Shown: piece after piece, positions 18,476-35,661 of the stretch | How positions within the stretch are numbered: the first letter of the stretch is position 1 | Layout of the letters: each line of letters opens with the position of its first letter | DNA from: Burkholderiales bacterium | Lineage (GTDB): Bacteria > Pseudomonadota > Gammaproteobacteria > Burkholderiales > Casimicrobiaceae | Assembly (NCBI GenBank): GCA_020851235.1 | Contig: JADZDD010000035.1 | Span: 248,001-312,000, forward strand | Direction: 5' to 3' | Length of the DNA stretch: 64,000 nucleotides | Translations under genes and position numbers: made by a program | The notes under the pieces: generated by a model | The model's database searches: none | The model's input: the letters and a program-made list of their open reading frames with translations, nothing else | What the model was told of the DNA's origin: nothing

Positions 18476-19786
18476 CTATCGAACATCACTAATCAGACCG
18501 ACGGCGAGCGTCGGGAAGATCGCAACGAGCGCGAGCACGACGAGCATGATCACGACGTAGGGAAGCGCGCCGACGATGATTCGCTCGAGACTGACGTCAC
18601 GCACGACACCCTGGACGACGAACAGGTTGAGGCCGACGGGTGGTGTAATCAACGCCATCTCCATGTTGATCGTGAGGATGATCCCAAACCAGATGAGGTC
18701 CCAACCGAACACCGTAATGATCGGGATCAAGATCGGCGTGGTGATGACGATGATCGACAGCGTCTCCATGAAGCAGCCGAGAAAGATCAAGAGGAGGTTG
18801 ATCGCGATGAAGACGAGCCATGGCGACACGTCGAGCTGCGCGACCGTACGGGACAGGACGGGTGCCACCTGGGTCGCCGTCATCGCATAACCAAAGACCA
18901 TCGCACCGGCGATGATCATCAGCACCATCACGCTTCCTCGTGCGGTCTCCTCCAGGATGGTCCGCAGCTTCTGGAGGCTGAGCTCGCGATAGATCGCCCC
19001 CGACAGGATCAGGCTTGCGAATGCGCCGAGCGCCGCAGCCTCGGTGGGCGTTGCGATTCCCTGGTAGATCGAACCCAGGATGATCCAGATGAGAACGGCA
19101 ATCGGGCCGACGTGTCGCAATGCGAGCAACCGATCGCGCCACGTGACGCGGGCATCTGCCGTTGGATGCCTGAACTGCGCCCGCTCGCGGAATGCGTTGA
19201 TGATCTGGTAGCTGATGAATGCTCCAGCCATCAGGAGACCGGGCACGATCCCCGCAATGAAGAGTTTCCCGATCGACTGCTCGGCGACGATCCCGTAGAC
19301 GATCATCGGGATGCTCGGCGGTATCAGGATGCCCAAAGTGCCACCGGCAGCGACCGCGCCGCACGACGTGCTGTCGCGATAACCGAAACGGCGCATCTCG
19401 TTGACGGAGAATCGGCCGATAGCCCCGGCGGTGGCGACGCTCGACCCGGAGACGGCAGCCATGATGGTGCAGGCGAGCGTGGTGGCGACGATGAGGCCAC
19501 CGGGAACTCCGTGCATCAGGGTGGCGAGCGAGCTGTAGAGGCGTGAGCCCATCCCCGACACGGAGATGATCGCCCCCATCAGGATGAACAGGGGTACGGC
19601 CGTCAGGGTGAAGCTCGTGATGGAGCCCCACAGCGTGGGCGCGATGAGGCCGAGGGCGTCGACGCCACCCCCTTGGAGAAACAGTGCGGCAATCCCCACG
19701 GCAAACAGACCGAACGCAACCGGGACACCGATGGCGAGCAGCGCGATGAGCGCCCCAAACATCGCCAAGCCGACCCAGATCTCCAT
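18476..19786 (-). CDS. dctM: TRAP transporter large permease (DctM type)
   Basis: The 436-residue, highly hydrophobic protein is the 12-helix channel subunit of a tripartite ATP-independent periplasmic transporter, driven by sodium or proton gradient. It carries VPVAFGLFAVGIAALFL, PLFILMGAIIS, GTLGILIPPSIPMIVYG, IYQGIATPTEAAALGAFASL and LLIFLGCFMETLSIIVITTPIL, all typical DctM stretches. It is the last gene of the leftward mutase operon, 37 bases after dctQ, and its end is close to the IS256 remnant. Confidence 0.95.
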   Translation of the reverse strand: MEIWVGLAMFGALIALLAIGVPVAFGLFAVGIAALFLQGGGVDALGLIAPTLWGSITSFTLTAVPLFILMGAIISVSGMGSRLYSSLATLMHGVPGGLIVATTLACTIMAAVSGSSVATAGAIGRFSVNEMRRFGYRDSTSCGAVAAGGTLGILIPPSIPMIVYGIVAEQSIGKLFIAGIVPGLLMAGAFISYQIINAFRERAQFRHPTADARVTWRDRLLALRHVGPIAVLIWIILGSIYQGIATPTEAAALGAFASLILSGAIYRELSLQKLRTILEETARGSVMVLMIIAGAMVFGYAMTATQVAPVLSRTVAQLDVSPWLVFIAINLLLIFLGCFMETLSIIVITTPILIPIITVFGWDLIWFGIILTINMEMALITPPVGLNLFVVQGVVRDVSLERIIVGALPYVVIMLVVLALVAIFPTLAVGLISDVR

Positions 19787-19823: not shown

Positions 19824-20357
19824 TCAGATGGTGCCGCTTCGTTCGCGAGCGATGATCAAGACGACCTGCATGAGAAGCAGCCACGCCATGCCAACTGCCA
19901 GGAACGAGTACGGAATCCACAGCGCGACTTCGACGAGGCCCCACGATTTCTCGCCGCTGGTGTAGGCGTCCCACCAGAACATGCCGCTCAGCCAGGTCAG
20001 GGTCGCCAGGGTTGCGATGACGACGACGTCGGCGGTGCGCACGAGCGCGCGTCTCGTGCGCGGTCCGACCCGCGTCAGCACGACGTCGACGTGGACGTGC
20101 GCGCCCTGGGAGAGGGCGTATGCCGCACCCACGAATGTGATGAATGCCATCAGGTACACCGACAGGTCATTGACCCATGCCGTCGTTATCCCCAACAGCG
20201 TGCGGTTGATGACTTCGATGGTGACGAGGACGGCGATCAGGAAGGCGGCGGCGCCGACGGCAACTCCAGACATTCGCGTGGCGCGAGCAAACCACCCCCG
20301 ACCCTCACTGCCATCGGGGGCGGCGTCGGTACCGCCGTCTGTCACGTTGACGGTCAC
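19824..20357 (-). CDS. dctQ: TRAP transporter small permease (DctQ type)
   Basis: The 177-residue protein has four predicted membrane segments (around AVGAAAFLIAVLVTIEVINR, LSVYLMAFITFVGAAYAL, VVVIATLATLTWLSGMFWW and IPYSFLAVGMAWLLLMQVVL) and the DctQ signature W-V-N-D-L-S-V-Y-L with G-A-H-V-H-V-D. It scaffolds the large permease. Its ATG overlaps the dctP stop by 4 bases. Confidence 0.92.
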   Translation of the reverse strand: MTVNVTDGGTDAAPDGSEGRGWFARATRMSGVAVGAAAFLIAVLVTIEVINRTLLGITTAWVNDLSVYLMAFITFVGAAYALSQGAHVHVDVVLTRVGPRTRRALVRTADVVVIATLATLTWLSGMFWWDAYTSGEKSWGLVEVALWIPYSFLAVGMAWLLLMQVVLIIARERSGTI

Positions 20358-21367
20358 TTCGTGAACCGGCTGCTGTCGCGGATCAACTCTTCGCCACCGG
20401 GAATGTCCTTCGCAAACTTGGTGAAGCTGTGCTGGGCGAACCAGGCTTGCCAGTTCTTCCAGTCGACCTCGCTCATCTTCTCGACCTTGACGCCCTTGTC
20501 GGCAAACAGCTTGGCGACACGGGAGTCCTCCCTCTTGGCTCCCTCGAGAGCCGCCTGTTCGAGGCTCGCGCCGACCTCCAGCATGATCTTCTGCTGCTCA
20601 GGGCTGAGCTTGTTCCACGTCTTCATGCTGATGGCGATGGGCTCGATCGTGAAGTAGACACTGAAGTCCTCCGGTGAGACGTAATACTTCGCCACCTCGT
20701 AGATCCGATACGCCCCAAACGAACCGGACGACGTCCACATGCCGTCGAGGAGCCCGAGTTGCATCGCGCTGTAGTTCTCGGACGAGGGCATCGAAACGGT
20801 ACTGGCCCCTGCCTGTTGCAGGGCATACTCCATGAACTTGCCTGCCGCACGAAGCTTCAATCCGGACACGTCCTCGTGCTTGTGGATCGCCTTCTTCGTC
20901 GACGCCACACCACCCGAAATCTGGATCCACGACAGCGTCTTGAAACCGAATGCCTCGGCCTTCTGTTCGAGCCGCTTCCACGCCTCGGAGGTGCGAAATG
21001 CGAAGACGTCGTCATGTGTCTTCCAAAGCCCGGGGAGCAACACCAGATTCATCTCCGGAATGGCTCCTGCTGCGTAGATATACGGGTACACCGCGAGGTC
21101 GACCGTCCCGTTCTTGAGGGCCGTGTGTGTGGCTCCGGCCTTCACGAGAGACTCCGCCGGAAACACCGTGATCTTGATCTGCCCGTTCGAGCGCTTCTCG
21201 ACCTCCTGAACGAACTTGGTGGCAGTCGCGATCACATAGTCTGCTTCGTCTTGCGGCCACTGGTGCGCCAGCTTGAGGTTCAGGACCTGCGCCGAAGCGG
21301 CCCCGCACATCGCCAGCATCGCAGTTGCGAGGAACCCCCGAACCGTCATGCGAAATCTCGTGCTCAT
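20354..21367 (-). CDS. dctP: TRAP transporter solute receptor (DctP type)
   Basis: The 337-residue periplasmic receptor has a signal peptide ending near GAASAQ, then the DctP pattern LNLKLAHQWPQDEADYVIATATKF, IKITVFPAESLVKAGATHTALKNG and a C-terminal helix rich in charged residues. The arginine in LRAAGKF corresponds to the residue that usually pairs with the ligand carboxylate, so an organic acid is the likely cargo. GGAGG at 21373-21377 picks ATG 21367 over an ATG 12 bases upstream. It follows the MeaB-type gene after 38 bases and is the cargo-binding part of the mutase operon's importer. Confidence 0.92.
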   Translation of the reverse strand: MSTRFRMTVRGFLATAMLAMCGAASAQVLNLKLAHQWPQDEADYVIATATKFVQEVEKRSNGQIKITVFPAESLVKAGATHTALKNGTVDLAVYPYIYAAGAIPEMNLVLLPGLWKTHDDVFAFRTSEAWKRLEQKAEAFGFKTLSWIQISGGVASTKKAIHKHEDVSGLKLRAAGKFMEYALQQAGASTVSMPSSENYSAMQLGLLDGMWTSSGSFGAYRIYEVAKYYVSPEDFSVYFTIEPIAISMKTWNKLSPEQQKIMLEVGASLEQAALEGAKREDSRVAKLFADKGVKVEKMSEVDWKNWQAWFAQHSFTKFAKDIPGGEELIRDSSRFTK

Positions 21368-21405: not shown

Positions 21406-22317
21406 TTAGCCTCGTCCTCTCGGTGATTCGATCAGACGCGTGAGCAGATCGCGGTAGACGATCGCCGGGTGCTCGGCGAAACGGGACGCGGGCAGGCTGC
21501 CCAGGACTTCGCTTAGCCGGCGCACGGCGAGCATGTGCACCCGGTAGCGGTTGAAGCGGCACCGACGCTCGAGCTCGCCACCCGATCGCACGCTCTTCGC
21601 AAGGGCGTCGTCGATCATTCCGCTCAACTCGTGCAGGCCCTTGTCGTCGTCGTGGCGGACGAGAACGATGGGTGGCGAGGATCTCGCCCGCCGGCGCCCG
21701 AGCACCGATCGAAGGTCGTTTGCGGTCGCTTCCGCACCGGGGAGATCCGCCTTGTTCACCACGATCACGTCGGCGGTCTCGATGATCCCGGCTTTCATCG
21801 CCTGAACGACATCCCCCGAGCCCGGCATCAGGACGAGAAGCTCGACGTCCGCCAGTTGGCGTATCGCGTATTCGGACTGGCCAACTCCGACCGTCTCGAT
21901 GATGATCTCCGCAAAGCCAAAGCCATCGATCGTCGCAAGGACCTCGGGCAGGTTGTCGCTCAGGCCATCCTGCGTCTGCCCACTCGCCAGCGAACGGATA
22001 TAGATTCGCGGATCGTCCGCGACGGTATCCATGCGGATCCGATCCCCGAGAAGAGACCCACGGCTGTTTGGGCTGGTGGGGTCGATCGCGATCACGGCCA
22101 AGGGGGCCACGCGCTCCACCCGATGGCGTGCGAGTCTCGCAACGAGCGAACTCTTGCCCACCCCCGGGGGGCCGGTCACGCCGATGCGGGGCGCTGCCGA
22201 GTGGGAGACTTCGGCGTCCTGCAGCGTCGCGTCGACACTCGCGCGCACCACCTGACTCAACGAACGCGCGAGCGCACGACGGTCGATGCCCAGCGGTGTC
22301 GATGTTTCGTCGCTCAT
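21406..22317 (-). CDS. MeaB/ArgK-type G-protein chaperone of a B12-dependent mutase
   Basis: The 303-residue P-loop GTPase has Walker A in GVTGPPGVGKSSLVARL, the DPTSPNSRGSLLGDRIRM run with the switch residues, ETVGVGQSEYAI (Walker B region) and NKADLPGAEA for guanine. MeaB proteins load and protect the adenosylcobalamin cofactor of acyl-CoA mutases. Its gene overlaps the CoA transferase gene by 4 bases and shares the operon with both mutase subunits, so it is surely dedicated to that mutase. Confidence 0.95.
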   Translation of the reverse strand: MSDETSTPLGIDRRALARSLSQVVRASVDATLQDAEVSHSAAPRIGVTGPPGVGKSSLVARLARHRVERVAPLAVIAIDPTSPNSRGSLLGDRIRMDTVADDPRIYIRSLASGQTQDGLSDNLPEVLATIDGFGFAEIIIETVGVGQSEYAIRQLADVELLVLMPGSGDVVQAMKAGIIETADVIVVNKADLPGAEATANDLRSVLGRRRARSSPPIVLVRHDDDKGLHELSGMIDDALAKSVRSGGELERRCRFNRYRVHMLAVRRLSEVLGSLPASRFAEHPAIVYRDLLTRLIESPRGRG

Positions 22318-23438
22318 TCTGCACGATTCAAGACAGCGCCATCGTGTTCCCCCAACTTCGGAGGTGCCCGGTACTCATCTGTCACGCCTGAAAGCTTGAT
22401 CGGATTGCCAACGACTCGAATCTTCCCTTCGCCGGATGCAATGTCCGCAACCATCCCGCGTGCACGCGTGTGCTCGCTCGCCAGCGCGAGGTCGAGGCTT
22501 TCGACGTCCGCCACGACGATGCCAAGCGGTGCGAGCCTCGATACCCAGTGCCTGGCGGTGTCCGCGGCAAGCACTTCGGCGATCTGCTCCAGAACGAGCG
22601 CGCGATTTGCGCGTCGGGCCTGCATCGTCGCGAAACACGAGTCGTCGATCCATTCCGGCTTCTTGATCTCCTCGCAGAAGAGCTTCCAGAAGCGGTCATG
22701 CGTGATGAACAGCGTGAGCCAGCCGTCCTGGGTAGGGAAGATCTGGGCGGGGACGATGTAAGGATGCGCCGAGTTCGCGTGGCGCTCCGGTCGCTCGGCA
22801 ACATTCAACCAGGCCCCCGCCAAGTAGTTCAGCTGGGAGAGCATCACGTCATACATCGCGATGTCGACTTGCCCGCCCTTTCCCTCCACGAGCTTCGCCA
22901 GGAGGCCGACCGCCCCCATGATCCCGGCCGAATTGTCGACCGCGGAGTAACCGGTCTTGGTCGGTGGGTCGTCGGGATCTCCGGTCAGCGCCATGACGCC
23001 GGTCAGCGCCTGGATGACATAGTCGTAGGCGGGTCGCTCGGCAAAGGGGCTGTCCAACCCATAGCCCGTGAGGGCCACGCAGACGATCCTCGGGTTCGCG
23101 GATTTCAGTGTGTCGTAGGTCAAGCCAAGCTTGCGAATCGCACCCGGACGAAGGTTGGTGATCAATCCAGCAGCCGTCCGCGCGAGATCGAAAAGATCAG
23201 CCCGGCCGCGCTCGGACGCAAGGTCCAGGACGATGCTCTTCTTGTTGCGATTGAGACTCGCGAAGTACATGTCGTGACCACCGACACGATGCGGACTGAT
23301 CGACCTCGCGATATCTCCCTCCCGCGGCTCGATCTTGATGACTTCGGCCCCGAGGTCGGCAAGAAGCATCCCGCAGTACGGTCCCATCAGCATGTGGCCG
23401 ACTTCGATGATCCGCTTGCCGGTGAGCGGGCGGCTCAT
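22314..23438 (-). CDS. CaiB/BaiF family (class III) CoA transferase, mutase operon
   Basis: The 374-residue protein starts IIEVGHMLMGPYCGMLLADLGAEVIKIEP, the family hallmark, and has SLNRNKKSIVLDL, TNLRPGAIRKLGL, and the Asp nucleophile region YSAVDNSAGIMGA. Class III CoA transferases move CoA between carboxylic acids through an aspartyl anhydride. It sits between the mutase small subunit and MeaB with 4-base overlaps on both sides, so it probably makes the mutase's acyl-CoA substrate from the acid delivered by the TRAP system, or recovers CoA from the product. Confidence 0.93.
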   Translation of the reverse strand: MSRPLTGKRIIEVGHMLMGPYCGMLLADLGAEVIKIEPREGDIARSISPHRVGGHDMYFASLNRNKKSIVLDLASERGRADLFDLARTAAGLITNLRPGAIRKLGLTYDTLKSANPRIVCVALTGYGLDSPFAERPAYDYVIQALTGVMALTGDPDDPPTKTGYSAVDNSAGIMGAVGLLAKLVEGKGGQVDIAMYDVMLSQLNYLAGAWLNVAERPERHANSAHPYIVPAQIFPTQDGWLTLFITHDRFWKLFCEEIKKPEWIDDSCFATMQARRANRALVLEQIAEVLAADTARHWVSRLAPLGIVVADVESLDLALASEHTRARGMVADIASGEGKIRVVGNPIKLSGVTDEYRAPPKLGEHDGAVLNRAE

Positions 23439-23854
23439 GACAGCAGCTCGGCCACACTGGCGATGACGTCGTCGAGTGGAATCTCGCTGGTGTAAACGCC
23501 GCGCACGCCCTTCGCTCGGAGCGTGCTCTGGTCGTCGGCGGGGATCGTACCCCCGACGAACACGGGAATGTCTTCGGCACCGAGCGTGCGGAGCTCCTCG
23601 AGGGTCTGCGTGACGAGCTCGTTGTGGCTCCCCGAAAGAATGGACAGGCCCACGGCATCGACGTCCTCGTCGACCGCCACCCGGGCGATGAAGCCCGGCG
23701 CCTTGCGCAGACCGGTATAGATAACGTCGGCGCCGGCGTCGCGCAGCGCGAGCGCGATCACCTTGGCCCCCACATCGTGCCCGTCGAGGCCGGGCTTCGC
23801 AATGAGGATTCGCTTGCCCTGCAACGACGGTGGCCTGGCGGCTGTGGCGTTCAT
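23435..23854 (-). CDS. Acyl-CoA mutase small subunit, cobalamin-binding
   Basis: The 139-residue protein is a stand-alone B12-binding domain: RILIAKPGLDGHDVGAKVIA contains the D-x-H-x-x-G motif whose His replaces dimethylbenzimidazole as lower axial ligand, followed by LSILSGSHNELV and IPVFVGGTIPADDQ, which line the nucleotide-tail pocket. I chose the ATG at 23854, which overlaps the large-subunit stop as ATGA. Together the two genes encode a mutase split in the manner of archaeal methylmalonyl-CoA, isobutyryl-CoA and 2-hydroxyisobutyryl-CoA mutases. Confidence 0.95.
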   Translation of the reverse strand: MNATAARPPSLQGKRILIAKPGLDGHDVGAKVIALALRDAGADVIYTGLRKAPGFIARVAVDEDVDAVGLSILSGSHNELVTQTLEELRTLGAEDIPVFVGGTIPADDQSTLRAKGVRGVYTSEIPLDDVIASVAELLS

Positions 23855-25476
23855 AGGCGGACCGGCTCCCGAAACTCTCCCCACTGCGCCTTCAGGCGAG
23901 CGACCATTTCACCCACCGTGGCATACGCATGGCAGCAGTCGATCAAGTACGGCATGAGGTTCTCCTCGTCCTTGACGCAGGCCGCTTCGAGGCGGTCGAG
24001 CGTTCGCGTGACGGCGGTCGCGTCGCGGCGGTGGCGGGTGACGTCCAGCTTCTCGAGCACCCGGCGGCTCACTTCAGGGTCGAGGTGAAATACTTCACCC
24101 GGCGCGGCGGACTGGTCGTCGCGGCGGAAGCAGTTCACCCCGACCACGGGCAGGGCGCCGCTGTCGATCTGCTGCTTTCTCTCGTGCGCGCGCTGAGCAA
24201 CGCGCTGCTGCATCCAGCCATCCTCGATGGCCTTGATCGTTCCACCGTAATCGTCGACTTCCTTCATGAGCGCGTCGATGCAGCGCTCCATCTCATCGGT
24301 CAGGTACTCGGTGTAGTAACTGCCGCCGAGCGGATCGACCGTACGTGCGATGCCGCTCTCGTGCGCGACGATCTGCTGCGTGCGTAATGCAAGCTCGGCT
24401 GCGAACTCGGTGGGAATCTGAAACGGCTCGTCGTAGGCGCAGGTGAAGATCGACTGCGCGCCACCAAGGACCGCAGCCATCGTCTCGATCGATACGCGGA
24501 CCACGTTGTTGTAGGGCTGCGGCGCGACCAGGGACGAGCCCCCGCAGACAACGCCGAAGCGGAACATCTGGGCCTTCGGATCGGTAACCGCGTACCGCTC
24601 CCGCAGCAGCCGGGCCCAGACGCGCCGCCCTGCCCGGAACTTCGCGACCTCCTCGAAGAGGTCCATGTGCACGTAGAAGAAGAACGACAGCCGTTTCGCA
24701 AAGCTGTCGACCTCGCCACCGCGGCGCAACAACTCGTCGACGTAGGCGAGTCCGTTGGACAGCGTGAATGCCATCTCCTCCGCCGCGGTGCACCCGGCAT
24801 CGCGCATGTGCGCGCCGGCGATGGAAATGGTGTTGAAACGCGGCGTCTCGCGATTGCCAAAGAGGATCGTGTCCGCGATCAAGCGCATCGACGGCGCCAC
24901 CGGGAAAATCCATGTGCCGCGCGCAACGTATTCCTTCAAGATGTCGTTCTGTATGGTGCCGGTCAGCCTCTCGCGCGGGATGCCGTTTCGGTCGGCGCAC
25001 GCGATGTACATGGCGTAGATGATCGCTGCCGTTCCATTGATGGTGAACGACGTCGAAATCCGGGACAGATCGATTCCCGCGAACAGGAGTTCCATCTCCG
25101 AGAGATTCGACAGCGAGACGCCGACCTTTCCGATCTCGGGTCGCGCCATCGGATCGGAGGGATCCAATCCGCATTGTGTCGGCAGGTCCAGCGCCACCGA
25201 CAGGCCGGTTTGGCCGCGATCGAGCAAGAATCGGTAACGCGCGTTGGATTCCTCCGGCGTACCGAAGCCGGAGTATTGGCGCATCGTCCACATGCGCCCA
25301 CGGTAGCCGTCGGGGAATATCCCGCGGGTGAACGGATAGCGCCCGGGCAGGCCTGAGTCCCGCGTCCGCGGCGTGTCAGGCGTCGCAACGACAGGCGCCT
25401 CGATTCCCGAGCGATTGGATGACGATGACACCTGCGACTCGCCGCCCGCGGCGGCACGATCCTTGGCAGCGCTCAT
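23851..25476 (-). CDS. B12-dependent acyl-CoA mutase large subunit with atypical active site
   Basis: The 541-residue protein is the TIM-barrel subunit of the methylmalonyl-CoA mutase family: MWTMRQYSGFGTPEESNARY, GLSVALDLPTQCGLD, TGTIQNDILKEYVARGTW, AHMRDAG, KRLSFFF and TVDPLGGSYYTEYLTDEME. Compared with P. shermanii MutB from memory, Tyr68 (MutB Tyr89), Arg186 (Arg207), His223 (His244), Arg262/Ser264 (Arg283/Ser285) and Gln341 (Gln361) are kept. However Tyr243 is Ala222, His328 is Gly308, Gln330 is Val310, and the S-L-H-T-N motif reads S-I-F-T-C. The pocket is therefore remodelled, and the substrate is unlikely to be plain methylmalonyl-CoA. A 40-residue variable N-terminus precedes the core. 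It overlaps both neighbours by 4 bases. Confidence 0.93.
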   Translation of the reverse strand: MSAAKDRAAAGGESQVSSSSNRSGIEAPVVATPDTPRTRDSGLPGRYPFTRGIFPDGYRGRMWTMRQYSGFGTPEESNARYRFLLDRGQTGLSVALDLPTQCGLDPSDPMARPEIGKVGVSLSNLSEMELLFAGIDLSRISTSFTINGTAAIIYAMYIACADRNGIPRERLTGTIQNDILKEYVARGTWIFPVAPSMRLIADTILFGNRETPRFNTISIAGAHMRDAGCTAAEEMAFTLSNGLAYVDELLRRGGEVDSFAKRLSFFFYVHMDLFEEVAKFRAGRRVWARLLRERYAVTDPKAQMFRFGVVCGGSSLVAPQPYNNVVRVSIETMAAVLGGAQSIFTCAYDEPFQIPTEFAAELALRTQQIVAHESGIARTVDPLGGSYYTEYLTDEMERCIDALMKEVDDYGGTIKAIEDGWMQQRVAQRAHERKQQIDSGALPVVGVNCFRRDDQSAAPGEVFHLDPEVSRRVLEKLDVTRHRRDATAVTRTLDRLEAACVKDEENLMPYLIDCCHAYATVGEMVARLKAQWGEFREPVRL

Positions 25477-26261
25477 GCACGACCTCGCCCGATCTGATCC
25501 AGCAAACGGTCCGCGGCTTCCCAATGGTCGGGGTGAATCCAGGTACGGACGAAACTCGTGCGCTCGACCTCCTCTCGCTCGACGCGGGGCAATCCACGAC
25601 GTCCACTTGCGGCGACCGCCTTGAATGCACGAAGGACCTGGGGCGCCTGGGCGCGCATCGGTCCCAGGAAACGTGCGAGGCACGCAGCGAGGGATTCGGC
25701 GCTGTCAGCCACCACGTCGATGAGTCCGATCCGCTTCGCCTCGGGCGCGTCGATGATTCTTGCCTCCACCAGGAGCGACAGTGCAGTGCGGGGTCCGACC
25801 AGATCGACCAGATCGGCTCCCCCACCGAAGCCCGTCGAGATGTTGAGGCGCCCTTGGACAAATCCGATCGTGGCGTGCGCTGCAGCAACGCGGAAGTCGC
25901 ACGCCATGGCCAGTTCTGCACCGCCGCCGACCGCGGTGCCGTTGAGCGCCGCGACCACGGGAACGGGGAACCATCGGATCGCTGCCAACGCGTCATTGCC
26001 GTGCCGGTACAGCGTTGCCGCCTCCTCCTCGCTGCGAAACGCCGCGAACTCCTTCAAATCGCCGCCGGCGGCGAAGCTCTTGTCGCCGGATCCGGTCACG
26101 ACGGCGGCGTGCAGCGACGCGTCGGTCGCGTACGCCTCGAATACCTGCCGAAGCTCCCCGAGGACCGCGCGACTGAGCGGGTTGCGCTTCTCCGGGCGAT
26201 CGACGCGAACGTGCAGCACGCGATCGACAACCTCCACATGGAGACACTCCGGCCGGGTCAT
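25473..26261 (-). CDS. Enoyl-CoA hydratase/isomerase family protein, possibly decarboxylase-like
   Basis: The 262-residue crotonase-fold protein has RPEKRNPLSRAVLGEL, the oxyanion-hole stretch SFAAGGDLKEF and LNGTAVGGGAELAMACDF, with the first catalytic Glu retained. In place of the second catalytic Glu region it reads GFVQGRLNISTGFGGGADLV, which resembles the ethylmalonyl/methylmalonyl-CoA decarboxylase branch (ECHDC1-like: F-x-Q-x-R-L-x-x-x-T-G-x-G-G-G) more than true hydratases. A role beside a mutase would parallel ScpB of the E. coli scpA-argK-scpB-scpC operon. The decarboxylase idea is inference. It overlaps iclR and the mutase gene by 4 bases each. Confidence 0.85.
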   Translation of the reverse strand: MTRPECLHVEVVDRVLHVRVDRPEKRNPLSRAVLGELRQVFEAYATDASLHAAVVTGSGDKSFAAGGDLKEFAAFRSEEEAATLYRHGNDALAAIRWFPVPVVAALNGTAVGGGAELAMACDFRVAAAHATIGFVQGRLNISTGFGGGADLVDLVGPRTALSLLVEARIIDAPEAKRIGLIDVVADSAESLAACLARFLGPMRAQAPQVLRAFKAVAASGRRGLPRVEREEVERTSFVRTWIHPDHWEAADRLLDQIGRGRA

Positions 26262-27001
26262 TGTGGAAAGATCCTTGCGATGGTCCGCTGCGCGTCGAGA
26301 AGGTCGGCGGCATTGGCGTCGATTCGCGTATTCATCCGATGCGTCGGGCCCGCGATCGCGAGACCAAAGACCTCGCCGTGGATGGCAAGGATCACCGCGA
26401 GCGCCGCCACGTCGGAGACGTTCTCACCGTCGGTCATGAAGTAACCGCGCGATCGGCTAAGCGCGAGATCCGCCTCCAGACGCTTCGTGTCGACAAGCGT
26501 CCGGGCGGTGATCGCTGGCAGGCGGTGCGTGCGCAGCCAACCGGCAAGCGCATCCGGCGCAAGCGCGCCGAGCAACGCCTTGCCGATCGAACTCGAATGA
26601 AGAGGCTTGAATTCGCCGGGACTTGCCATGTAGCGAACGGTGTGCAGCCCGGGAATCACCTCGAGATAGAGCACCTGATCGCCCTGCCGCTTGCCGAGGA
26701 TGATCGTCTCGCGCGTCCGGTCGCGCAGCGCGTGCAGGACGGACGCGATGCGCTCCAGGAGAGGATCGTGCCGCACGATCGTTTCGGCAACGTCGAGAAG
26801 GCGCCGCGTCGGATACACGTCCTTGCGGCGTCCGAGCGAGTACAGATACCCGCGATCGAGCAACGTGCGCACGAGGCCATGGCAGCTGCTGACGGGAATG
26901 TGGGCCCGACCTGCGAGTTCCGTGAGCGCCATGGGTCGCCGCGCGATCTCGAAGGCTTCGAAAACCGCAAGCGTGCGATCGGCGGTGCGAACGTAGGCCA
27001 T
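26258..27001 (-). CDS. IclR family transcriptional regulator of the mutase operon
   Basis: The 247-residue protein has the N-terminal winged helix (RTLAVFEAFEIARRPMALTELA, then IPVSSCHGLVRTLLDRGYL) and the C-terminal IclR effector domain (TVRYMASPGEFKPLHSSSIGKALLGAL, and SRSRGYFMTDGENVSDVAALAV). It is the first gene of the operon that runs to dctM, coupled to the next gene by a 4-base overlap. Two palindromes lie just upstream of its ATG, so it probably controls itself and the whole operon in response to the pathway substrate or a CoA ester. Confidence 0.92.
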   Translation of the reverse strand: MAYVRTADRTLAVFEAFEIARRPMALTELAGRAHIPVSSCHGLVRTLLDRGYLYSLGRRKDVYPTRRLLDVAETIVRHDPLLERIASVLHALRDRTRETIILGKRQGDQVLYLEVIPGLHTVRYMASPGEFKPLHSSSIGKALLGALAPDALAGWLRTHRLPAITARTLVDTKRLEADLALSRSRGYFMTDGENVSDVAALAVILAIHGEVFGLAIAGPTHRMNTRIDANAADLLDAQRTIARIFPQ

Positions 27002-27524: not shown

Positions 27525-27574
27525 CCATTGGAGAAATTGAAAGCGCAGTGCGCGTCATGGATCGACGGTATCGG

Positions 27575-27604
27575 TTGCCCTCGATGGCCGGCCTTTGCGA
27601 TAGT
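27575..27604 (+). promoter_or_regulatory. Possible promoter of the 27695 enoyl-CoA hydratase gene
   Basis: TTGCCC at 27575-27580 and GATAGT at 27599-27604, with an 18-base spacer, give a moderate sigma-70 match about 90 bases before the start codon. Tentative. Confidence 0.3.
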
Positions 27605-27694
27605 GTGAATCCGCCGTGTCGCGGACCCCTTGCGCGTGACCGCGAGCCGACTCGGTCGAGCATCATTACATACGAGGCAACAAGGAGCTTGTTC

Positions 27695-28501
27695 ATGGGC
27701 ACTCCAGCAAATGAGATTCTCGAAGACGCACCCGTGGTGACATCCCGGGCCAACGGCATCCTCTCGATCACGCTGAATCGGCCGAAACGCAGAAATGCCC
27801 TGTCGATCGAGGTCATACAGGCGTTGCAGAAACTGTTCGACGATGCCGCGGGTGACGAGACGATCCGCGTGCTCGTCCTCGGAGCGACGGGAACCGTCTT
27901 TTGTGCGGGATACGACTTGCAGGAGTCGCGCGAGAACAGCGGCAATGTGGAGTTCATTCGGCGCCGGGCCGTCCTTGGCGTTCGCATGACACAGGCGATG
28001 ATGGCGTTGCCGCAGCCGGTCATTGCCAAGATCGGCGGCGTAGCCACGGCGGCAGGCTGCCAGCTCGTTGCGGCGTCCGATCTCGCGATTGCATCGACCG
28101 ACGCTCGCTTCGGCACACCTGGCGTCAACATCGGCACGTGGTGCGCCGCGCCGATGGTGGCCTTGAGCAGGGTCGTGCATCGCAAACATGCACTCCAGTT
28201 CCTGTTGACCGGGCAGCTGCACGATGCTGCGACCGCGCAGCGGATGGGGCTCGTCAACGACGTGGTGGCTCCCGACGAACTGGACGATGCTGTCGAACGG
28301 CTGGCGTCCTTGATCGCCAGCAAGTCGCCCTACGCAGTCGCACTGGGCAAGAGGGCCTTCTACCATCAGTTGGAGATGGGAATTTCTCATGCCTACGAAT
28401 ACGTGACCGAGCTCTCCGCTCGAAACTCGACTGCCTACGATGCGCGGGAAGGCGTCGCGGCATTCCTCGAAAAGAGGGAACCTCGGTGGGCGGGGCGATA
28501 G
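27695..28501 (+). CDS. Enoyl-CoA hydratase/isomerase family protein
   Basis: The 268-residue crotonase-fold protein has ITLNRPKRRNALSIEVIQAL, oxyanion-hole stretches VFCAGYDLQES and IGGVATAAGCQLVAASDLAIAS, and FGTPGVNIGTWCAAPMVALSR. The usual first catalytic Glu position (G-C-E-L) is Gln (G-C-Q-L), and the second Glu region lacks Glu as well, so classical hydration is doubtful; isomerase or another acyl-CoA reaction is possible. AAGGAG seven bases before the ATG sets the start. Its 3' end faces the MmgE/PrpD gene across 20 bases. Confidence 0.85.
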   Translation: MGTPANEILEDAPVVTSRANGILSITLNRPKRRNALSIEVIQALQKLFDDAAGDETIRVLVLGATGTVFCAGYDLQESRENSGNVEFIRRRAVLGVRMTQAMMALPQPVIAKIGGVATAAGCQLVAASDLAIASTDARFGTPGVNIGTWCAAPMVALSRVVHRKHALQFLLTGQLHDAATAQRMGLVNDVVAPDELDDAVERLASLIASKSPYAVALGKRAFYHQLEMGISHAYEYVTELSARNSTAYDAREGVAAFLEKREPRWAGR

Positions 28502-28521
28502 GCTGTCCGGACCGAGCTCGA

Positions 28522-29877
28522 TCAGCCCTGCACATGCGCGAGCAACTCGCCCAGGTCCTGCGCGGTATCGAGCCCGCGAACGGCGCGAATGATGCCGTCG
28601 CGATCCTCGGATGTGACGAGGCCCGTGGCCAACTCCATGAACTTTGCCTCGACGACAGCCCACTTGTCGGCAGCCGTCGCCGTACGACGGCGAAGGTCGA
28701 CGTGGGACGATAGCTGTCGGCCGTCCACCAGGTGCAACGTGGCGATGGCCTCGGGCCAGGCGAGCGTCGCGTTCTCGCTGATGCCAGCCACCGTTCGCAA
28801 ATCCCGCAAGAGTGGCTCGCGAACGCGATCATCGGAAAAATCCGCGACCCGGGCATGACCGTAGGCAACGGCCTGTGCCATCGCGTGGGGCAGGCTGAAT
28901 TTTGCCTCGAGGCCAGTGACCGGCTCCGGGATGGGTGCGTTCTGGATCGAGAGGGGGCCAACCTCTCCGCGCATCGTCGTCACGTCACGTGCTTGCAACC
29001 CGTGCTTCGCCCTCAAGTCCAGCACGGCCTCGATCAGTGCCTGGGTACAAAACGAAGACGCATGCGTCTTGTAGAGTATTTCGGTGATCGCCCATGGGCG
29101 CCGCCCTGCATTCCAGTCCTCCAGCAGGAAGTCCCACACCGGCGCGTCGCACATGACGTGGCCGAATCCGTTCGGTCCGCCCAGAATGTCGGCGGCACTG
29201 GTGAAACCGCGCACCGCAAGCAACGCGGCCGTGACGCCGTTTCGTGCGGCAATCCCCGCGTGGAGCGGCTTCGTCATCGATCCGAAGGTCTCTTTCAAGC
29301 CGCCGGATTGCGTCCCGGCAATCCCGAGCGCGGCAACGGTCTGCCGCGGGTCGAGCCCCAGAAGGTGGGCCGCCGCCACGGCCGACCCGAAATGCCCGAG
29401 CGTCGCGGTTGCGTGCCACCCACGCTGGTAATGACTGGGGTTGACCGCCATGCCGATCCGGAGCTCTGCCTCGATGCCCAGCGCGATGGCGCGCAGGACC
29501 AAAGCGCCCGGGGTACCCTGCGTCTCGGCGAGGGCGAGCGCCGCGGCGACGACCGGAGCACTGGGGTGCATGGCCGACTCGATGTGCATGTCGTCAAAAT
29601 CGAGCGCATGCGCGGCGGCCCCGTTGATGAGTGCCGCCTCGTGGGTCGGAATTCGACGGCGACGAAACCACAGGGTCGACTGCCTTGCGGCCTGCGACGA
29701 CCCCTGGACCTCATCGAGTATCGCGACCAGTGGCTCCCGACTGCCGGGGATGGCCACGCCAAGCGTGTCCAACAGGCAGGCCCTGGCCGTCTCGATCGCT
29801 TCGCCTGGGAGTGGGACCGATGCCGCTTTCGCGATGGTCTCGGCGAGGCGAAGAGTGATGTTGTTTGCCGCGATCAT
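28522..29877 (-). CDS. MmgE/PrpD family protein
   Basis: The 451-residue protein belongs to the family of 2-methylcitrate dehydratase (PrpD) and cis-aconitate decarboxylase. Family stretches include ARACLLDTLGVAIPGS, AALINGAAAHALDFDDMH, HPSAPVVAAALALAE, GYQRGW-like YQRGWHATATLGHFGSA, GTQSGGLKETFGSMTKPLHAG and YKTHASSFCTQALIEA. The D-F-D-D active-site Asp pair is present. Members act on small tricarboxylic or dicarboxylic acids. It may be the distal gene of the CaiB-carrier-carboxyltransferase operon, 221 bases downstream with no terminator that I can see. That gap contains nothing else recognisable. Confidence 0.9.
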   Translation of the reverse strand: MIAANNITLRLAETIAKAASVPLPGEAIETARACLLDTLGVAIPGSREPLVAILDEVQGSSQAARQSTLWFRRRRIPTHEAALINGAAAHALDFDDMHIESAMHPSAPVVAAALALAETQGTPGALVLRAIALGIEAELRIGMAVNPSHYQRGWHATATLGHFGSAVAAAHLLGLDPRQTVAALGIAGTQSGGLKETFGSMTKPLHAGIAARNGVTAALLAVRGFTSAADILGGPNGFGHVMCDAPVWDFLLEDWNAGRRPWAITEILYKTHASSFCTQALIEAVLDLRAKHGLQARDVTTMRGEVGPLSIQNAPIPEPVTGLEAKFSLPHAMAQAVAYGHARVADFSDDRVREPLLRDLRTVAGISENATLAWPEAIATLHLVDGRQLSSHVDLRRRTATAADKWAVVEAKFMELATGLVTSEDRDGIIRAVRGLDTAQDLGELLAHVQG

Positions 29878-30098
29878 GTTCAGTCGAGGGGATGTCCGAC
29901 GTGCTTCCTGAACGTCGTGCAATGCGGGCCATCGAGACGTCTCGTCGCGAGGCGGTGGGGGCCAGGCATGTTCGCCGATGATGCGGCCCGTCTACGTGAC
30001 GGGTCCACTGTACCACCTGGAGGTCGTGGCAGCCCTCCCTGCATGTCGTCCGCCTCATGGGTAGTGGGCAATCGAAGCCCGTCGCCCCCACACGCGAC

Positions 30099-31661
30099 CT
30101 ACGGCGCGACGCCCGCCCGGTGCTTGACGCCGAGGTCGGTGGCAAGGCGCCCCTGCATCGCGTCGACGAAGCGGCAAAGGTACGGCCGGGTTTCGCGCGG
30201 ATCGATCACGTCCTCGACCGCGAATGCCTCCGCGGTCAGGAACGGCGATGCCAGCGCGCGAAGCTCGGCCTCGATCTGCGCGAGGCGCTGCTGCGGATCG
30301 GCCGCCGCCTCGATCTCGCGACGAAACGCGGCTGCGGCGCCTCCCTCGACCGGCAACGAGCCCCATTCCGCCGAAGGCCACGCGACCTTGAAGTCGAGGC
30401 CGTTCTTGTCGGTGGTTGCCATGCCCGCCATGCCGTAGCACTTGCGGATGACGACGGTGAGCATCGGCACGCGCGCCTGCAACGCGGTGTAGACGCTGCG
30501 CATGCCTTCGCGCAACGTTGCCGCCTGCTCCGCTTGCAGGCCGACCATGAAGCCGGGAACGTCGACCAGGAAGATGAGCGGAATGTGGAACGTGTCGCAC
30601 AGCGTGATGAAGTGCGTCTGCTTGCGCGCGGCCTTCACGTCCATGGCGCCGCCGTTGACCATCGGATTGTTGGCGATGAAGCCGACGACCTTGCCGTTCA
30701 TGCGCCCGAACGCGGTGATGAGCGCGCGGCCGAAGGTCGGCTGGATCTCGAACAGCGAATCGCGATCGGCGACCATCGCGACGAGCTTCTTCATGTTGTA
30801 CGGGCGCCGGCGTTCGCGCGGAACGATGGACAACAGCGCCTCGTCACGCCGTTCGGGGTCGTCGCCGGTGTCCACGACCGGAGGCAGGCTCCACACGTTC
30901 TGCGGCATGTAGGAGAGGTACCTGCGAATCATCGCAAAGCAGTCGGAGTCGCTGTCCGCGGCGTTGTCGATGGTTCCGGCCATGTCGACCGCGATGGCCG
31001 CGCCGCCCAGGGCTTCCTTGTCGATCTTCTGTCCAAGCGAGCGCTCGACCACGGGCGGGCCGGCGGCGAACACCTGGCTCGTGCCCTTCACCATCACCGA
31101 CCAATGCGCAAGGATCGCGCGACCTGCCGGTCCGCCAGCGGCGGTGCCCATCACGGCACACACCACGGGAACTTCGGACATGAGCTCGACCGAACGCTCG
31201 AAGCCGTGCACGCCGGGAAACACGGTATAGCCTCGGCGCGTCGCCGAGGTGACGGTCCCGCCCGCGCCGTCGATGAGGTTCACGAGCGGGATGCGGTACT
31301 CATGCGCGAGATCCTCGACGAAGCCGCCCTGCCCACCCTTGCGGCGATCGCTTCCCCAACTCGTGCCGCCGCGCACGGTGAAGTCCTCGCCGCCGACGGC
31401 CACGGGGCGTCCATCGATGGTCGCGAGCCCCATCACGTACGGCGCGGGAACCACCTTCACGAGCTTTCCGCTGTCGTAAGTGGCCTTCCCGGCCAGGCCG
31501 CCGACCTCGCGGAACGAACCCGGGTCGCAAAGGCCGTCGATGCGCTCGCGAACCGTCAGCCGTCCGCGACTGTGATGCTTCGCGATCGCCTCCGCTCCGC
31601 CCAGCGCGTCCGCGAACCCGCGCCTCGCGACGATCTCGTCGGCTTCCGGTTTCCAGCTCAT
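30099..31661 (-). CDS. Acyl-CoA carboxyltransferase subunit, PccB type (first of two)
   Basis: The 520-residue protein has both crotonase-like halves of biotin-dependent carboxyltransferases. The N-half has KHHSRGRLTVRERIDGLCDPG, VNLIDGAGGTVTSATR and MGTAAGGPAGRAILAHWSVMVKG. The C-half has RMNGKVVGFIANNPMVNGGAMDVKAARKQ, LVDVPGFMVGLQAEQ and VVIRKCYGMAGMA. It would transfer CO2 from carboxybiotin to an acyl-CoA. The start ATG at 31661 lies 11 bases after the biotin carrier gene. A second, different carboxyltransferase gene lies on the divergent operon. No biotin carboxylase domain is present, so the complex must use the separately encoded parts. Confidence 0.92.
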   Translation of the reverse strand: MSWKPEADEIVARRGFADALGGAEAIAKHHSRGRLTVRERIDGLCDPGSFREVGGLAGKATYDSGKLVKVVPAPYVMGLATIDGRPVAVGGEDFTVRGGTSWGSDRRKGGQGGFVEDLAHEYRIPLVNLIDGAGGTVTSATRRGYTVFPGVHGFERSVELMSEVPVVCAVMGTAAGGPAGRAILAHWSVMVKGTSQVFAAGPPVVERSLGQKIDKEALGGAAIAVDMAGTIDNAADSDSDCFAMIRRYLSYMPQNVWSLPPVVDTGDDPERRDEALLSIVPRERRRPYNMKKLVAMVADRDSLFEIQPTFGRALITAFGRMNGKVVGFIANNPMVNGGAMDVKAARKQTHFITLCDTFHIPLIFLVDVPGFMVGLQAEQAATLREGMRSVYTALQARVPMLTVVIRKCYGMAGMATTDKNGLDFKVAWPSAEWGSLPVEGGAAAAFRREIEAAADPQQRLAQIEAELRALASPFLTAEAFAVEDVIDPRETRPYLCRFVDAMQGRLATDLGVKHRAGVAP

Positions 31662-31672
31662 CGCGCGCTCCG

Positions 31673-31894
31673 TCACACGTCCAGCACGGCGACGACCTGA
31701 CCCTCGGTCACGGGCTCGTTCTCGCGCACGCAGATCTGCGCCACCTTCCCCTTCGCTTCGGCGAGCACGGGGATCTCCATCTTCATCGACTCGAGGATCA
31801 TCAAGGCGTCGTCCTCCTCCACGGCATCTCCGGGCTGCTTGACGATCTTCCACACCGATCCGGTGATCTCCGACTTCACGTCCCTCGTCGCCAT
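31673..31894 (-). CDS. Stand-alone biotin carboxyl carrier domain
   Basis: The 73-residue protein is a single biotinyl domain; LMILESMKMEIPVLAE contains the M-K-M biotinylation lysine, and the barrel ends VTEGQVVAVLDV. It is about the minimal size of a free carrier. It lies between the CaiB gene (30 bases away) and the carboxyltransferase gene, and supplies the swinging arm between the biotin carboxylase encoded at 35662 and the carboxyltransferase(s). Confidence 0.95.
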   Translation of the reverse strand: MATRDVKSEITGSVWKIVKQPGDAVEEDDALMILESMKMEIPVLAEAKGKVAQICVRENEPVTEGQVVAVLDV

Positions 31895-31923
31895 GCCTGC
31901 TTTCCTTGTCTGGGTTCGTTATC

Positions 31924-33183
31924 TCACGCCGCGCCTGCGCGCGAGACGGCCGGCTCGCGCGCCATCGCCTCGCAGGCGATCACGCGGGCGGCCTCGAGGC
32001 GCGTGATCTGCGCCGCATCCATGCCGAGGAGCTCGGTGAGCACCCGGCGCGTGTCCTGGCCGACCCTGCCTCCCGCGTGGTGGATCGCCCCGGGTGTTGC
32101 GGACAGGCGCGGCACCGGCGCTGCCATCGCCACCGCGCCGAGTTCATCGTCGGGAGCATGGGCGATGGCGCCGCGTGCGGCGTAGTGCGGATCGGCAAAG
32201 ATGTCCGCCATCGTGAAAATGCGGGTGGCCGGCACGTCGGCGACCCGCAGTTTCGTCTCGAGCGCGTCGAGATCGTGCGCCGCGGTCCAGCGGCCGATGC
32301 GGTCGTCGATGTCCTCATGGTGGGCCGAGCGCGCCACCGCATCCTTGAACCGCACGTCCTCGGCGAGCTCCGGCGCGCCCATGCAGGCGGCGAGGCGCCG
32401 GAACACCGCGTCGCCCATGGCGGTGATGTGGATGAACTGGCCGTCGCGGCTTGCGTAGAGGTTGTTCGGCGTGCTGTCCGGCAGGCGCGAGCCGGCGCGA
32501 TTGGCCACGACCGCGAGCTTGTCGAACGCGGGAATGTGCGGCTCCATGAAACTGAACGCGCACTCGTAGAGCGCGCTGTCGATGTACTGGCCACGGCCCG
32601 TCCTGGTGCGCGAAAGGAGCGCCATGACGGCGCCGAAGGCGGCGTACAGGCCCGTGATGTAGTCGGTGATCGAAACCGCGACACGCGAAGGAGGGCGTTC
32701 CGGCTCGCCCGTGATGTGGCGCAGCCCGCTCACTGCCTCGCCGATCACGCCGTAGCCCGCGCGATCGCTGTACGGCCCGGTCTGCCCGAAGCCGCTGATG
32801 CGCACCATGACGAGGCCCGGGTTGTCGGCAGAAAGCGCCGCGTACCCGAGGCCCCACTTCTCGAGCGCGCCGGGGCGGAAGTTCTCGACCACGGCGTCGC
32901 ACTTCGCCGCGATCGCCCGCGCGATCGCCTGCCCCTCGGGCTTGCGCAGGTCGATCGAAACGAGCGCCTTGTTGCGAAAGATGCTTGCGGCGTAGAGCGA
33001 TCGGCCGTGAAAGCGCTTGCCCATCGTGCGCACCGGATCACCTTCGGCGGGCTCGACCTTGATCACCTCGGCGCCGAAGTCGGCGAGCAGGCGCCCGCAG
33101 AACGGCCCGGCCACCGTCGATCCCATCTCGAGCACGCGGTAGCCGGTGAGGGGGCCGGCGGGTGCCGCCTGCGCTTGCGTCAT
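31924..33183 (-). CDS. CaiB/BaiF family CoA transferase, carboxylase operon
   Basis: The 419-residue protein has YRVLEMGSTVAGPFCGRLLADFGAEVIKVEP, VENFRPGALEKWGLGY, MVRISGFGQTGPYSDRAGYG and the Asp-containing SITDYITGLYAAFGA. It is the first gene of the leftward operon with biotin carrier and carboxyltransferase, so it probably makes the acyl-CoA that is then carboxylated. It is clearly a different paralogue from the CaiB protein at 22314. The CoA donor and acid are unknown. Confidence 0.93.
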   Translation of the reverse strand: MTQAQAAPAGPLTGYRVLEMGSTVAGPFCGRLLADFGAEVIKVEPAEGDPVRTMGKRFHGRSLYAASIFRNKALVSIDLRKPEGQAIARAIAAKCDAVVENFRPGALEKWGLGYAALSADNPGLVMVRISGFGQTGPYSDRAGYGVIGEAVSGLRHITGEPERPPSRVAVSITDYITGLYAAFGAVMALLSRTRTGRGQYIDSALYECAFSFMEPHIPAFDKLAVVANRAGSRLPDSTPNNLYASRDGQFIHITAMGDAVFRRLAACMGAPELAEDVRFKDAVARSAHHEDIDDRIGRWTAAHDLDALETKLRVADVPATRIFTMADIFADPHYAARGAIAHAPDDELGAVAMAAPVPRLSATPGAIHHAGGRVGQDTRRVLTELLGMDAAQITRLEAARVIACEAMAREPAVSRAGAA

Positions 33184-33248
33184 CTCGCTTCCTCGTTACG
33201 CGTCGACGTTCATTCTGCGATTCATCGACAGGCGCGTCAACAGCTTTG

Positions 33249-33290
33249 TATGCATATTTGTTGACACGTGTTGCGAAGCGGGTGTACGGT
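33249..33290. promoter_or_regulatory. Divergent promoter/operator region between caiB-like and gntR genes
   Basis: An AT-rich island contains the palindrome TATGCATA at 33249-33256, a TTGACA at 33261-33266 that can serve as a -35 for the rightward gntR gene (TACGGT at 33285-33290 as a weak -10), and the short palindrome ACACGTGT at 33264-33271. In this GC-rich setting it is the evident control region for both divergent operons and the likely GntR target. Confidence 0.5.
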
Positions 33291-33330
33291 CGCATGACAC
33301 CGCCCGCTCGCGACGGTGCGAATCGCGGGC

Positions 33331-35660: not shown

Positions 35661-35661
35661 G

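Follow-up and report, generated by a model that had tools for sequence, protein, structure and literature searches.

The mutase operon and its distribution

The window, by which we mean the whole 64,000-nucleotide stretch analyzed here (positions 248,001 to 312,000 of contig JADZDD010000035.1, from a Burkholderiales bacterium), contains a minus-strand operon built around a two-subunit adenosylcobalamin (AdoCbl)-dependent acyl-CoA mutase. This mutase and the reaction it may catalyze are the subject of this report. The genes on the minus strand follow one another as IclR regulator, crotonase, mutase large subunit (mutL), mutase small subunit (mutS), family III CoA-transferase, and MeaB/ArgK-like GTPase, with TRAP transporter genes for DctP, DctQ, and DctM coming next, and four-base ATGA overlaps join the consecutive genes from IclR through the GTPase. 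The features of the operon are as follows.

23851..25476, minus strand: mutase large subunit, 541 amino acids, AdoCbl acyl-CoA mutase barrel domain (PF01642, 629 bits, cut-off 22.1; TIGR00641, 629.5 bits, cut-off 303.8)
23435..23854, minus strand: mutase small subunit, 139 amino acids, B12-binding, with GLDGHDVG (TIGR00640, 141 bits, cut-off 57.45)
25473..26261, minus strand: crotonase-fold enzyme, 262 amino acids, a proposed substituted malonyl-CoA decarboxylase (PF00378)
22314..23438, minus strand: family III CoA-transferase, 374 amino acids, catalytic Asp139 (PF02515)
21406..22317, minus strand: MeaB/ArgK-like GTPase, 303 amino acids, a probable mutase chaperone (TIGR00750, 213.7 bits, below the cut-off of 240.75)
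26258..27001, minus strand: IclR-family regulator (PF01614, PF09339)
20354..21367, minus strand: TRAP solute-binding protein DctP (PF03480; start set by inspection)
19824..20357, minus strand: TRAP small permease DctQ (PF04290)
18476..19786, minus strand: TRAP large permease DctM (TIGR00786, 371.6 bits, cut-off 268.45)

A fold search with the large subunit returned 4r3u, a 2-hydroxyisobutyryl-CoA mutase (HCM), and structures of methylmalonyl-CoA mutase (MCM). Both mutase subunits scored above the cut-offs of the NCBIfam acid-CoA mutase N- and C-terminal subfamilies; no NCBIfam equivalog model was over its cut-off for either subunit, the MCM and IcmF models being built for longer, fused proteins, so that a subunit of a split enzyme could hardly match them. 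The DxHxxG motif that an earlier note on this DNA had assigned to the small subunit is present there as GLDGHDVG, and the start of this subunit is most likely the ATG at 23854, which overlaps the large-subunit stop, rather than the GTG at 23884.

Relatives of the mutase were compared in 88 rows beyond the window, 80 from one contig scan and eight (4 + 4) from other searches. In two cases the same genes had been reached twice (L070 = L124, L112 = L125), which leaves 86 distinct rows, and five further pairs were >97% alike. The 80 loci were chosen with the peptides FFFYVHM and ALDLPTQC and are the best 80 of at least 541 relatives at a loose threshold. The choice itself thus accounts for part of the conservation of those two stretches, but not for that of the other stretches. 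Judged by record title, most hosts belong to the alpha-, beta-, and gammaproteobacteria, with Marinobacter, Halomonas, and Paraburkholderia among them; L091 comes from a metagenome-assembled genome (MAG) with the label Singulisphaera, where a binning error is possible. The distribution is scattered, with a member of at least 67% identity in 3 of the 274 genomes sampled of the class, the window's own included, and a member in 3 of 399 Burkholderiales genomes, of which one is the chosen center and one is split over two contigs. Where an annotation was seen (L037–L040), it read "methylmalonyl-CoA mutase family protein."

The composition of the operon was counted over 84 named loci, using for each gene only those loci with enough flank. 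By this count, mutS is downstream of mutL in 84/84 loci, the crotonase gene precedes mutL, with the same orientation, in 77/80, the CoA-transferase gene is downstream on the same strand in 73/80, the GTPase gene is downstream in 69/76, and an IclR gene is upstream in 47/71 (32 on the same strand and 15 on the opposite one). No epimerase was found among the core genes, as judged from the core annotation of L037–L040 and the operon counts. Transporter genes differ between loci and include TRAP, TAXI-TRAP, TTT, ABC, and MFS types.

The window's 3.9-Mb genome encodes six PF01642 proteins, on contigs C38, C4, C35, C13 (two), and C20: a canonical MCM (L001), an HCM-like protein, the window-type mutase, members of two further classes (L004 and L005), and a long protein resembling IcmF. 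Of eight genomes compared, three (G277, G279, and G280; genome completeness not stated) have a window-type mutase as the sole PF01642 protein found, which is therefore no companion of a canonical MCM there; G277 and G280, the genomes of L101 and L081, are from Halomonas or Billgrantia. Two window-type copies lie ∼31 kb apart on one contig of Bradyrhizobium manausense (L059 and L060). Past the IclR gene, positions 27548–37032 of the window hold genes for a second crotonase, an MmgE/PrpD protein, two mmdA-like carboxyltransferases, a second family III CoA-transferase, and a biotin carboxylase; the MmgE/PrpD family is present in 5/85 loci, two of them being the window and L044, a relative at 90% identity.

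Active-site residues and phylogenetic placement

The large subunit was aligned with Propionibacterium shermanii MutB (1req), human MMUT, and the HCM 4r3u. The positions listed below either differ from MutB or belong to its carboxylate-binding pair.

24538..24555, minus strand: GVVCGG replacing HSQTSG, residues 308–313, MutB 328–333 (alignment)
24439..24453, minus strand: SIFTC replacing SLHTN, residues 342–346, MutB 362–366 (alignment)
24808..24816, minus strand: GAH replacing GYH, residues 221–223, MutB 242–244, with His244 kept (alignment)
25162..25179, minus strand: TQCGLD replacing THRGYD, residues 100–105, MutB 121–126 (alignment)
25273..25275, minus strand: Tyr68, MutB Tyr89 (in 86/86 distinct relatives)
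24919..24921, minus strand: Arg186, MutB Arg207 (in 86/86 distinct relatives)

Translation and alignment reproduced every residue that the earlier note had given for the four altered stretches and for the retained Tyr68, Arg186, and His223 (MutB His244), and its MutB numbering, which is used from here on, holds. Gln197 and Glu370 are also retained in the window mutase. We take Tyr89 and Arg207 to lie on the substrate carboxylate side of MutB, and the altered positions to lie between the substrate and the 5′-deoxyadenosyl group, where the radical carbon of the substrate meets that group; Gln330, Asn366, and Glu370 presumably touch the adenosyl group. The kept carboxylate-binding residues support the suggestion, made in the same note, that the substrate may still carry a carboxylate. 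Its idea of a larger pocket can be refined, as the altered positions, mapped on the MutB structure, point to a radical carbon that bears a substituent rather than to a pocket enlarged overall. In an AlphaFold model of the large subunit (mean predicted local distance difference test score [pLDDT] of 75; residues in the subunit's own numbering), the altered stretches fall on barrel strands (306–311 and 342–345) and the best structural match is 4r3u; the pLDDT is <50 at residues 180–189 (including Arg186), 314–319, and 347–355 (including the Glu370 equivalent).

When the 86 distinct relatives were compared, Gly328, Val329, Val330, Cys331, Gly332, Gly333, Ala243, Phe364, Tyr89, Gln197, Arg207, His244, and Glu370 were invariant in all of them, and position 366 was Cys in 73/86 and Ala in 13/86. 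The carboxylate-binding and catalytic residues are thus kept while both loops are fixed in their new form, which points to constraint rather than decay. The small-subunit DxHxxG is present in 87/87 rows, the window included, the CoA-transferase Asp139 in 79/79 rows, and the P-loop lysine of the GTPase in 76/76 rows.

A maximum-likelihood tree of 51 rows, from which four of the active-site stretches had been removed, contained separate clades, each supported at 100/100, for the window type (13 rows), MCM (8), HCM with pivalyl-CoA mutase (PCM) (8), the type of the phenylsuccinyl-CoA/benzylmalonyl-CoA mutase subunit IaaG (5), and ethylmalonyl-CoA mutase (ECM) (3). In this check, which had been set beforehand, the large subunit did not fall inside any characterized mutase clade placed on the tree. 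The window mutase is a class of its own, outside every one of those clades. A quick 64-row tree that kept the active-site columns gave the window type a support of 99, with the one ECM row that it contained next to the window clade (92); once the columns were removed and three ECM rows were used, ECM stood beside MCM with weak support. Topology tests rejected neither a grouping of all replaced-loop rows (approximately unbiased test p value [p-AU] of 0.31) nor the same grouping minus ECM (0.29), and they rejected neither the window type with the IaaG type (0.10) nor the window type with ECM (0.48). The deep branches thus allow more than one sister for the window clade, and either a single or a repeated origin of the replaced loops.

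Several identities for the window mutase were considered and rejected. It is not an MCM by its residues (GVVCGG and SIFTC versus HxQTSG and SLHTN) and its separate clade; isobutyryl-CoA mutase (ICM), HCM, and PCM were ruled out by residues and tree, with Arg207 and Tyr89 in 86/86 relatives and not Gln207 with Ile or Phe at position 89. Membership of the IaaGH clade was ruled out after an iaa-type operon had been found and placed in a separate clade, and no iaa operon genes (hydantoinase-type or IaaF) were present among the core genes annotated in L037–L040 or among the window genes scanned, which cover part of the window. ECM identity was rejected because the clades are separate and because ccr gave no match over the family cut-off in the window's genome, where the same search gave matches over the cut-off in three ECM-bearing genomes.

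A proposed pathway for substituted dicarboxylates

Near-invariance, which the earlier note had claimed for the HSQTSG stretch, holds for both HxQTxG and SLHTN in MCM, ICM, HCM, and PCM and fails across the superfamily as a whole. Both motifs are intact in MCM (1req, human MMUT, and E. coli ScpA), in the HCM 4r3u, in an Ilyobacter MCM encoded beside epimerase and Na+-decarboxylase genes, and in a haloarchaeal MCM encoded beside an epimerase gene, as well as in the rows taken to be PCM and IcmF. ECM, checked in two genomes where ccr lies no more than 2 kb away, has GVQVNS and ALQLP with Gln330 retained, and the IaaG type has IAGGGG and TMALC. The same note had proposed a mutase class with a remodeled active site; the enzyme is indeed distinct and has its own conserved operon, but replaced loops are not unique to it, as ECM and the IaaG type have them too. 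The IaaG type was assigned by context, a hydantoinase B gene lying within 5 kb in 5/6 genomes and the mutase and hydantoinase matches lying on different contigs in the sixth. Cys366 is common to the window class (73/86) and the IaaG type (6/6). The radical carbon bears only hydrogen in the substrates of MCM, ICM, HCM, and PCM, and it bears a substituent in those of ECM and IaaGH-type enzymes. The replacement of both loops together with the retention of Tyr89 and Arg207 therefore suggests that the substrate is dicarboxylic and that its hydrogen-losing carbon is substituted. One iaa-type locus (L157) encodes a thiolase, a CoA ligase, hydantoinases A and B, an acyl-CoA dehydrogenase, the mutase, a molybdenum hydroxylase, a family III CoA-transferase, and a 3HCDH-crotonase fusion, in agreement with the iaa scheme (IaaGH/IaaL/IaaF) of PMC8360864.

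Other mutase classes were seen during this comparison. Neither motif is present in L015/L016 (X1), L143 (X2), L145/L153 (X3), or L168, and Arg207 is kept in L143, L145, L153, and L168. The class of L155 (G268:C78:74000-92000), L015, and L016 has the loops HSGGDT and SIQLP and, as in the window, Ala243; the L155 locus itself encodes two large subunits and one small subunit, a crotonase with a ScpB-like active-site stretch, a CoA-transferase, and a GTPase.

Based on the residues, the clade, and the gene order, we propose that the operon encodes a mutase for R-substituted succinyl-CoA/substituted malonyl-CoA and ends in decarboxylation by the crotonase, a reading to which we assign a probability of roughly 0.5. 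A dicarboxylic acid would be taken up, in the window through the TRAP transporter, and activated by the family III CoA-transferase, and the MeaB-like GTPase would load the AdoCbl mutase. The mutase would then interconvert R-CH(COSCoA)-CH2-COO− and R-CH2-CH(COO−)-COSCoA, where R is not H, with Tyr89 and Arg207 holding the free carboxylate as in MCM, and the replaced loops 328–333 and 362–366 together with the Tyr243 to Ala change giving R space on the carbon that loses hydrogen to the adenosyl radical. In the proposed direction, the crotonase would decarboxylate the malonyl-CoA product to R-CH2-CH2-CO-SCoA, and the transferase could reuse the CoA of this compound, in the manner of E. coli scpA-argK-scpB-scpC. 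This is probably known chemistry in a variant form, carried out on a substituted dicarboxylate. Whether all of these steps combine into one proteobacterial B12 module, which would import a substituted succinate, shift the thioester on a substituted radical carbon, decarboxylate with a dedicated crotonase, and return CoA by transfer, and so define a new substrate class and a catabolic route, is a proposal that we make tentatively.

The last step was considered from the crotonase residues. The equivalent of hydratase Glu144 (Glu116) is kept in 81/81 crotonases, the window included, and the place of hydratase Glu164 (position 136, Gln136 in the window) is Gln in 73, His in 8, and Glu in 0 of the same 81. 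The methylmalonyl-CoA decarboxylase of E. coli, ScpB, likewise lacks a Glu at this place. The loss of the Glu164 equivalent speaks against ordinary hydratase activity and agrees with decarboxylation, so the crotonase may decarboxylate the substituted malonyl-CoA product. The best-surviving alternative, which concerns this step only, is that the crotonase acts as a hydratase or as a lyase and that the mutase feeds a hydroxyacyl-CoA/enoyl-CoA route. We consider it rather doubtful: the nearest solved relatives of the crotonase are mostly named hydratases and the first glutamate is universal, but the second is replaced in every sequence and no acyl-CoA dehydrogenase is found among the core genes.

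Several observations weigh against the substituted-dicarboxylate pathway. The loop rule is based on two substituted classes only, of which ECM keeps Gln330 and the IaaG type was assigned by operon context rather than from the A. aromaticum sequence; because the tests do not reject one common origin for every replaced-loop row, these may not be independent cases. L005, L035, and L169 are intermediate, with one motif more altered than the other, and the L004 class and L177, with SMHTD or SLHTD, do not fall cleanly on one side of the rule. The CoA-transferase is of family III, unlike ScpC, and gave no ScpC match, and the window crotonase is only 22.6% identical to ScpB, its best Protein Data Bank matches being mostly named hydratases. 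Acyl-CoA carboxylase genes lie ∼3–10 kb beyond the window operon and could serve a related route. The E. coli pathway requires an epimerase, according to PMC5512728, and the window-type core is without one. Finally, MatB/ActD, with its proposed pentyl substituent, would make a third substituted class, and PMC5719088 assigns ActD to the HCM subclass.

A different explanation of the loops is that the enzyme is an MCM or ECM in which they have drifted, with ordinary propionate or ethylmalonyl-CoA chemistry. Tyr89, Arg207, His244, and Gln197 are indeed the same as in MCM and ECM, ECM itself has replaced loops, and grouping it with the window type is nearly cost-free (p-AU of 0.48). However, this explanation is unlikely, as the genome already encodes a canonical MCM and has no ccr over the family cut-off, the new 328–333 loop is invariant in 86/86 distinct relatives, the core genes include no epimerase, and the three ECM rows group in a separate clade (100/100).

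The loops could instead mainly contact the 5′-deoxyadenosyl group, so that their replacement would reflect changed radical holding or a changed cobamide with little change of substrate. In keeping with this, Gln330 and Asn366 are lost and Glu370 is kept, all three being adenosyl contacts in MutB. Yet the IaaG type has lost both Gln330 and Asn366, and ECM only Asn366, and we take both to act on substituted substrates (for the former, see also PMC8360864); furthermore, genes for AdoCbl supply, here of the corrinoid adenosyltransferase family, are beside the operon in only 5/85 loci, the window counted (one member scanned and one annotated). We regard this explanation as improbable.

Neighboring genes were also compared as leads to the substrate. 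An isopenicillin N synthase-type 2OG-Fe(II) oxygenase is encoded nearby in 16/85 loci (L038, L052, L107, and 13 more). Its gene lies on the upstream side in alphaproteobacterial MAGs and on the downstream side in betaproteobacteria, with 51–58% identity between the groups; the best solved match of the oxygenase is an ethylene/succinate-forming enzyme. Sulfopyruvate-decarboxylase-like and beta-hydroxyacid dehydrogenase families (one representative of each scanned) face the operon in 10/85 loci, all alphaproteobacterial MAGs by title (L052, L055, L057, L061, L062, L072, L075, L078, L096, and L100). A substrate guess from these neighbors (2OG oxygenase, thiamin diphosphate-dependent decarboxylase, luciferase-like, and TauD genes) was kept as a lead only, the genes being patchy, and as the neighbor and transporter leads disagree on one compound, only the type of substrate is named here. 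That Arg207 and Tyr89 bind another anionic or polar group such as a sulfonate, in organosulfonate or similar catabolism, is very improbable: the two facing families just described and the luciferase-like monooxygenase and TauD-like dioxygenase families (6/85 loci each, one representative scanned per family) would fit it, but the facing families and the luciferase-like family were seen only in alphaproteobacterial MAGs and the TauD-like family in a few other loci, none is in the window's operon, and the altered loop is hydrophobic, not basic.

To our knowledge, few substrate classes of acyl-CoA mutases have been described. If the substituted-dicarboxylate reading is true, it adds a new mutase substrate class and a catabolic route that can be read from two loop motifs, and if loops 328–333 and 362–366 report a substituted radical carbon, several of the other mutase classes noted above become predictable. 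The class is widespread, with at least 80 loci, and its fixed operon supplies the partners for an assay. In searches of an open-access library, no title or abstract opening describing this operon or clade was found.

Comparison with known systems

The closest known systems each share part of these features. IaaGH, the phenylsuccinyl-CoA/benzylmalonyl-CoA mutase of anaerobic indoleacetate degradation, was compared through the IaaG-type rows assigned by operon context. Like the window enzyme, the IaaG type is a two-subunit AdoCbl mutase with Tyr89 and Arg207, both loops replaced, Cys366, and a family III CoA-transferase partner. It differs in its loops (IAGGGG/TMALC versus GVVCGG/SIFTC), in keeping Tyr243, in being only 43–45% identical and in a separate clade, and in having acyl-CoA dehydrogenase and hydantoinase-type genes as partners. 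ECM, the substrate of which is a substituted dicarboxylate, as is proposed for the window enzyme, shares Tyr89, Arg207, and the GV at 328–329; unlike the window enzyme, it has GVQVNS/ALQLP with Gln330 kept, is encoded beside ccr, is 35–38% identical, and forms a separate clade.

In gene content, the operon resembles E. coli scpA-argK-scpB-scpC, the sleeping beauty mutase operon, which likewise brings together a mutase, a MeaB-like GTPase, a crotonase-fold enzyme, and a CoA-transferase; in contrast to the window proteins, ScpA has MCM loops and ScpC belongs to another CoA-transferase family. HCM and PCM have the same two-subunit layout, and 4r3u is the closest solved structure (45%), but their Ile89 and Gln207 do not form a carboxylate-binding pair and their HxQTAA and SLHTN are intact. 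Two further systems are likened by description only, each with a substituent on the radical carbon proposed in its source: the MatB/ActD hexylmalonyl-CoA mutases of matlystatin and actinonin, where the proposed substituent is a pentyl group (PMC5719088), and the putative alkylsuccinate mutase mcmLS of anaerobic alkane degraders (PMC6776118).

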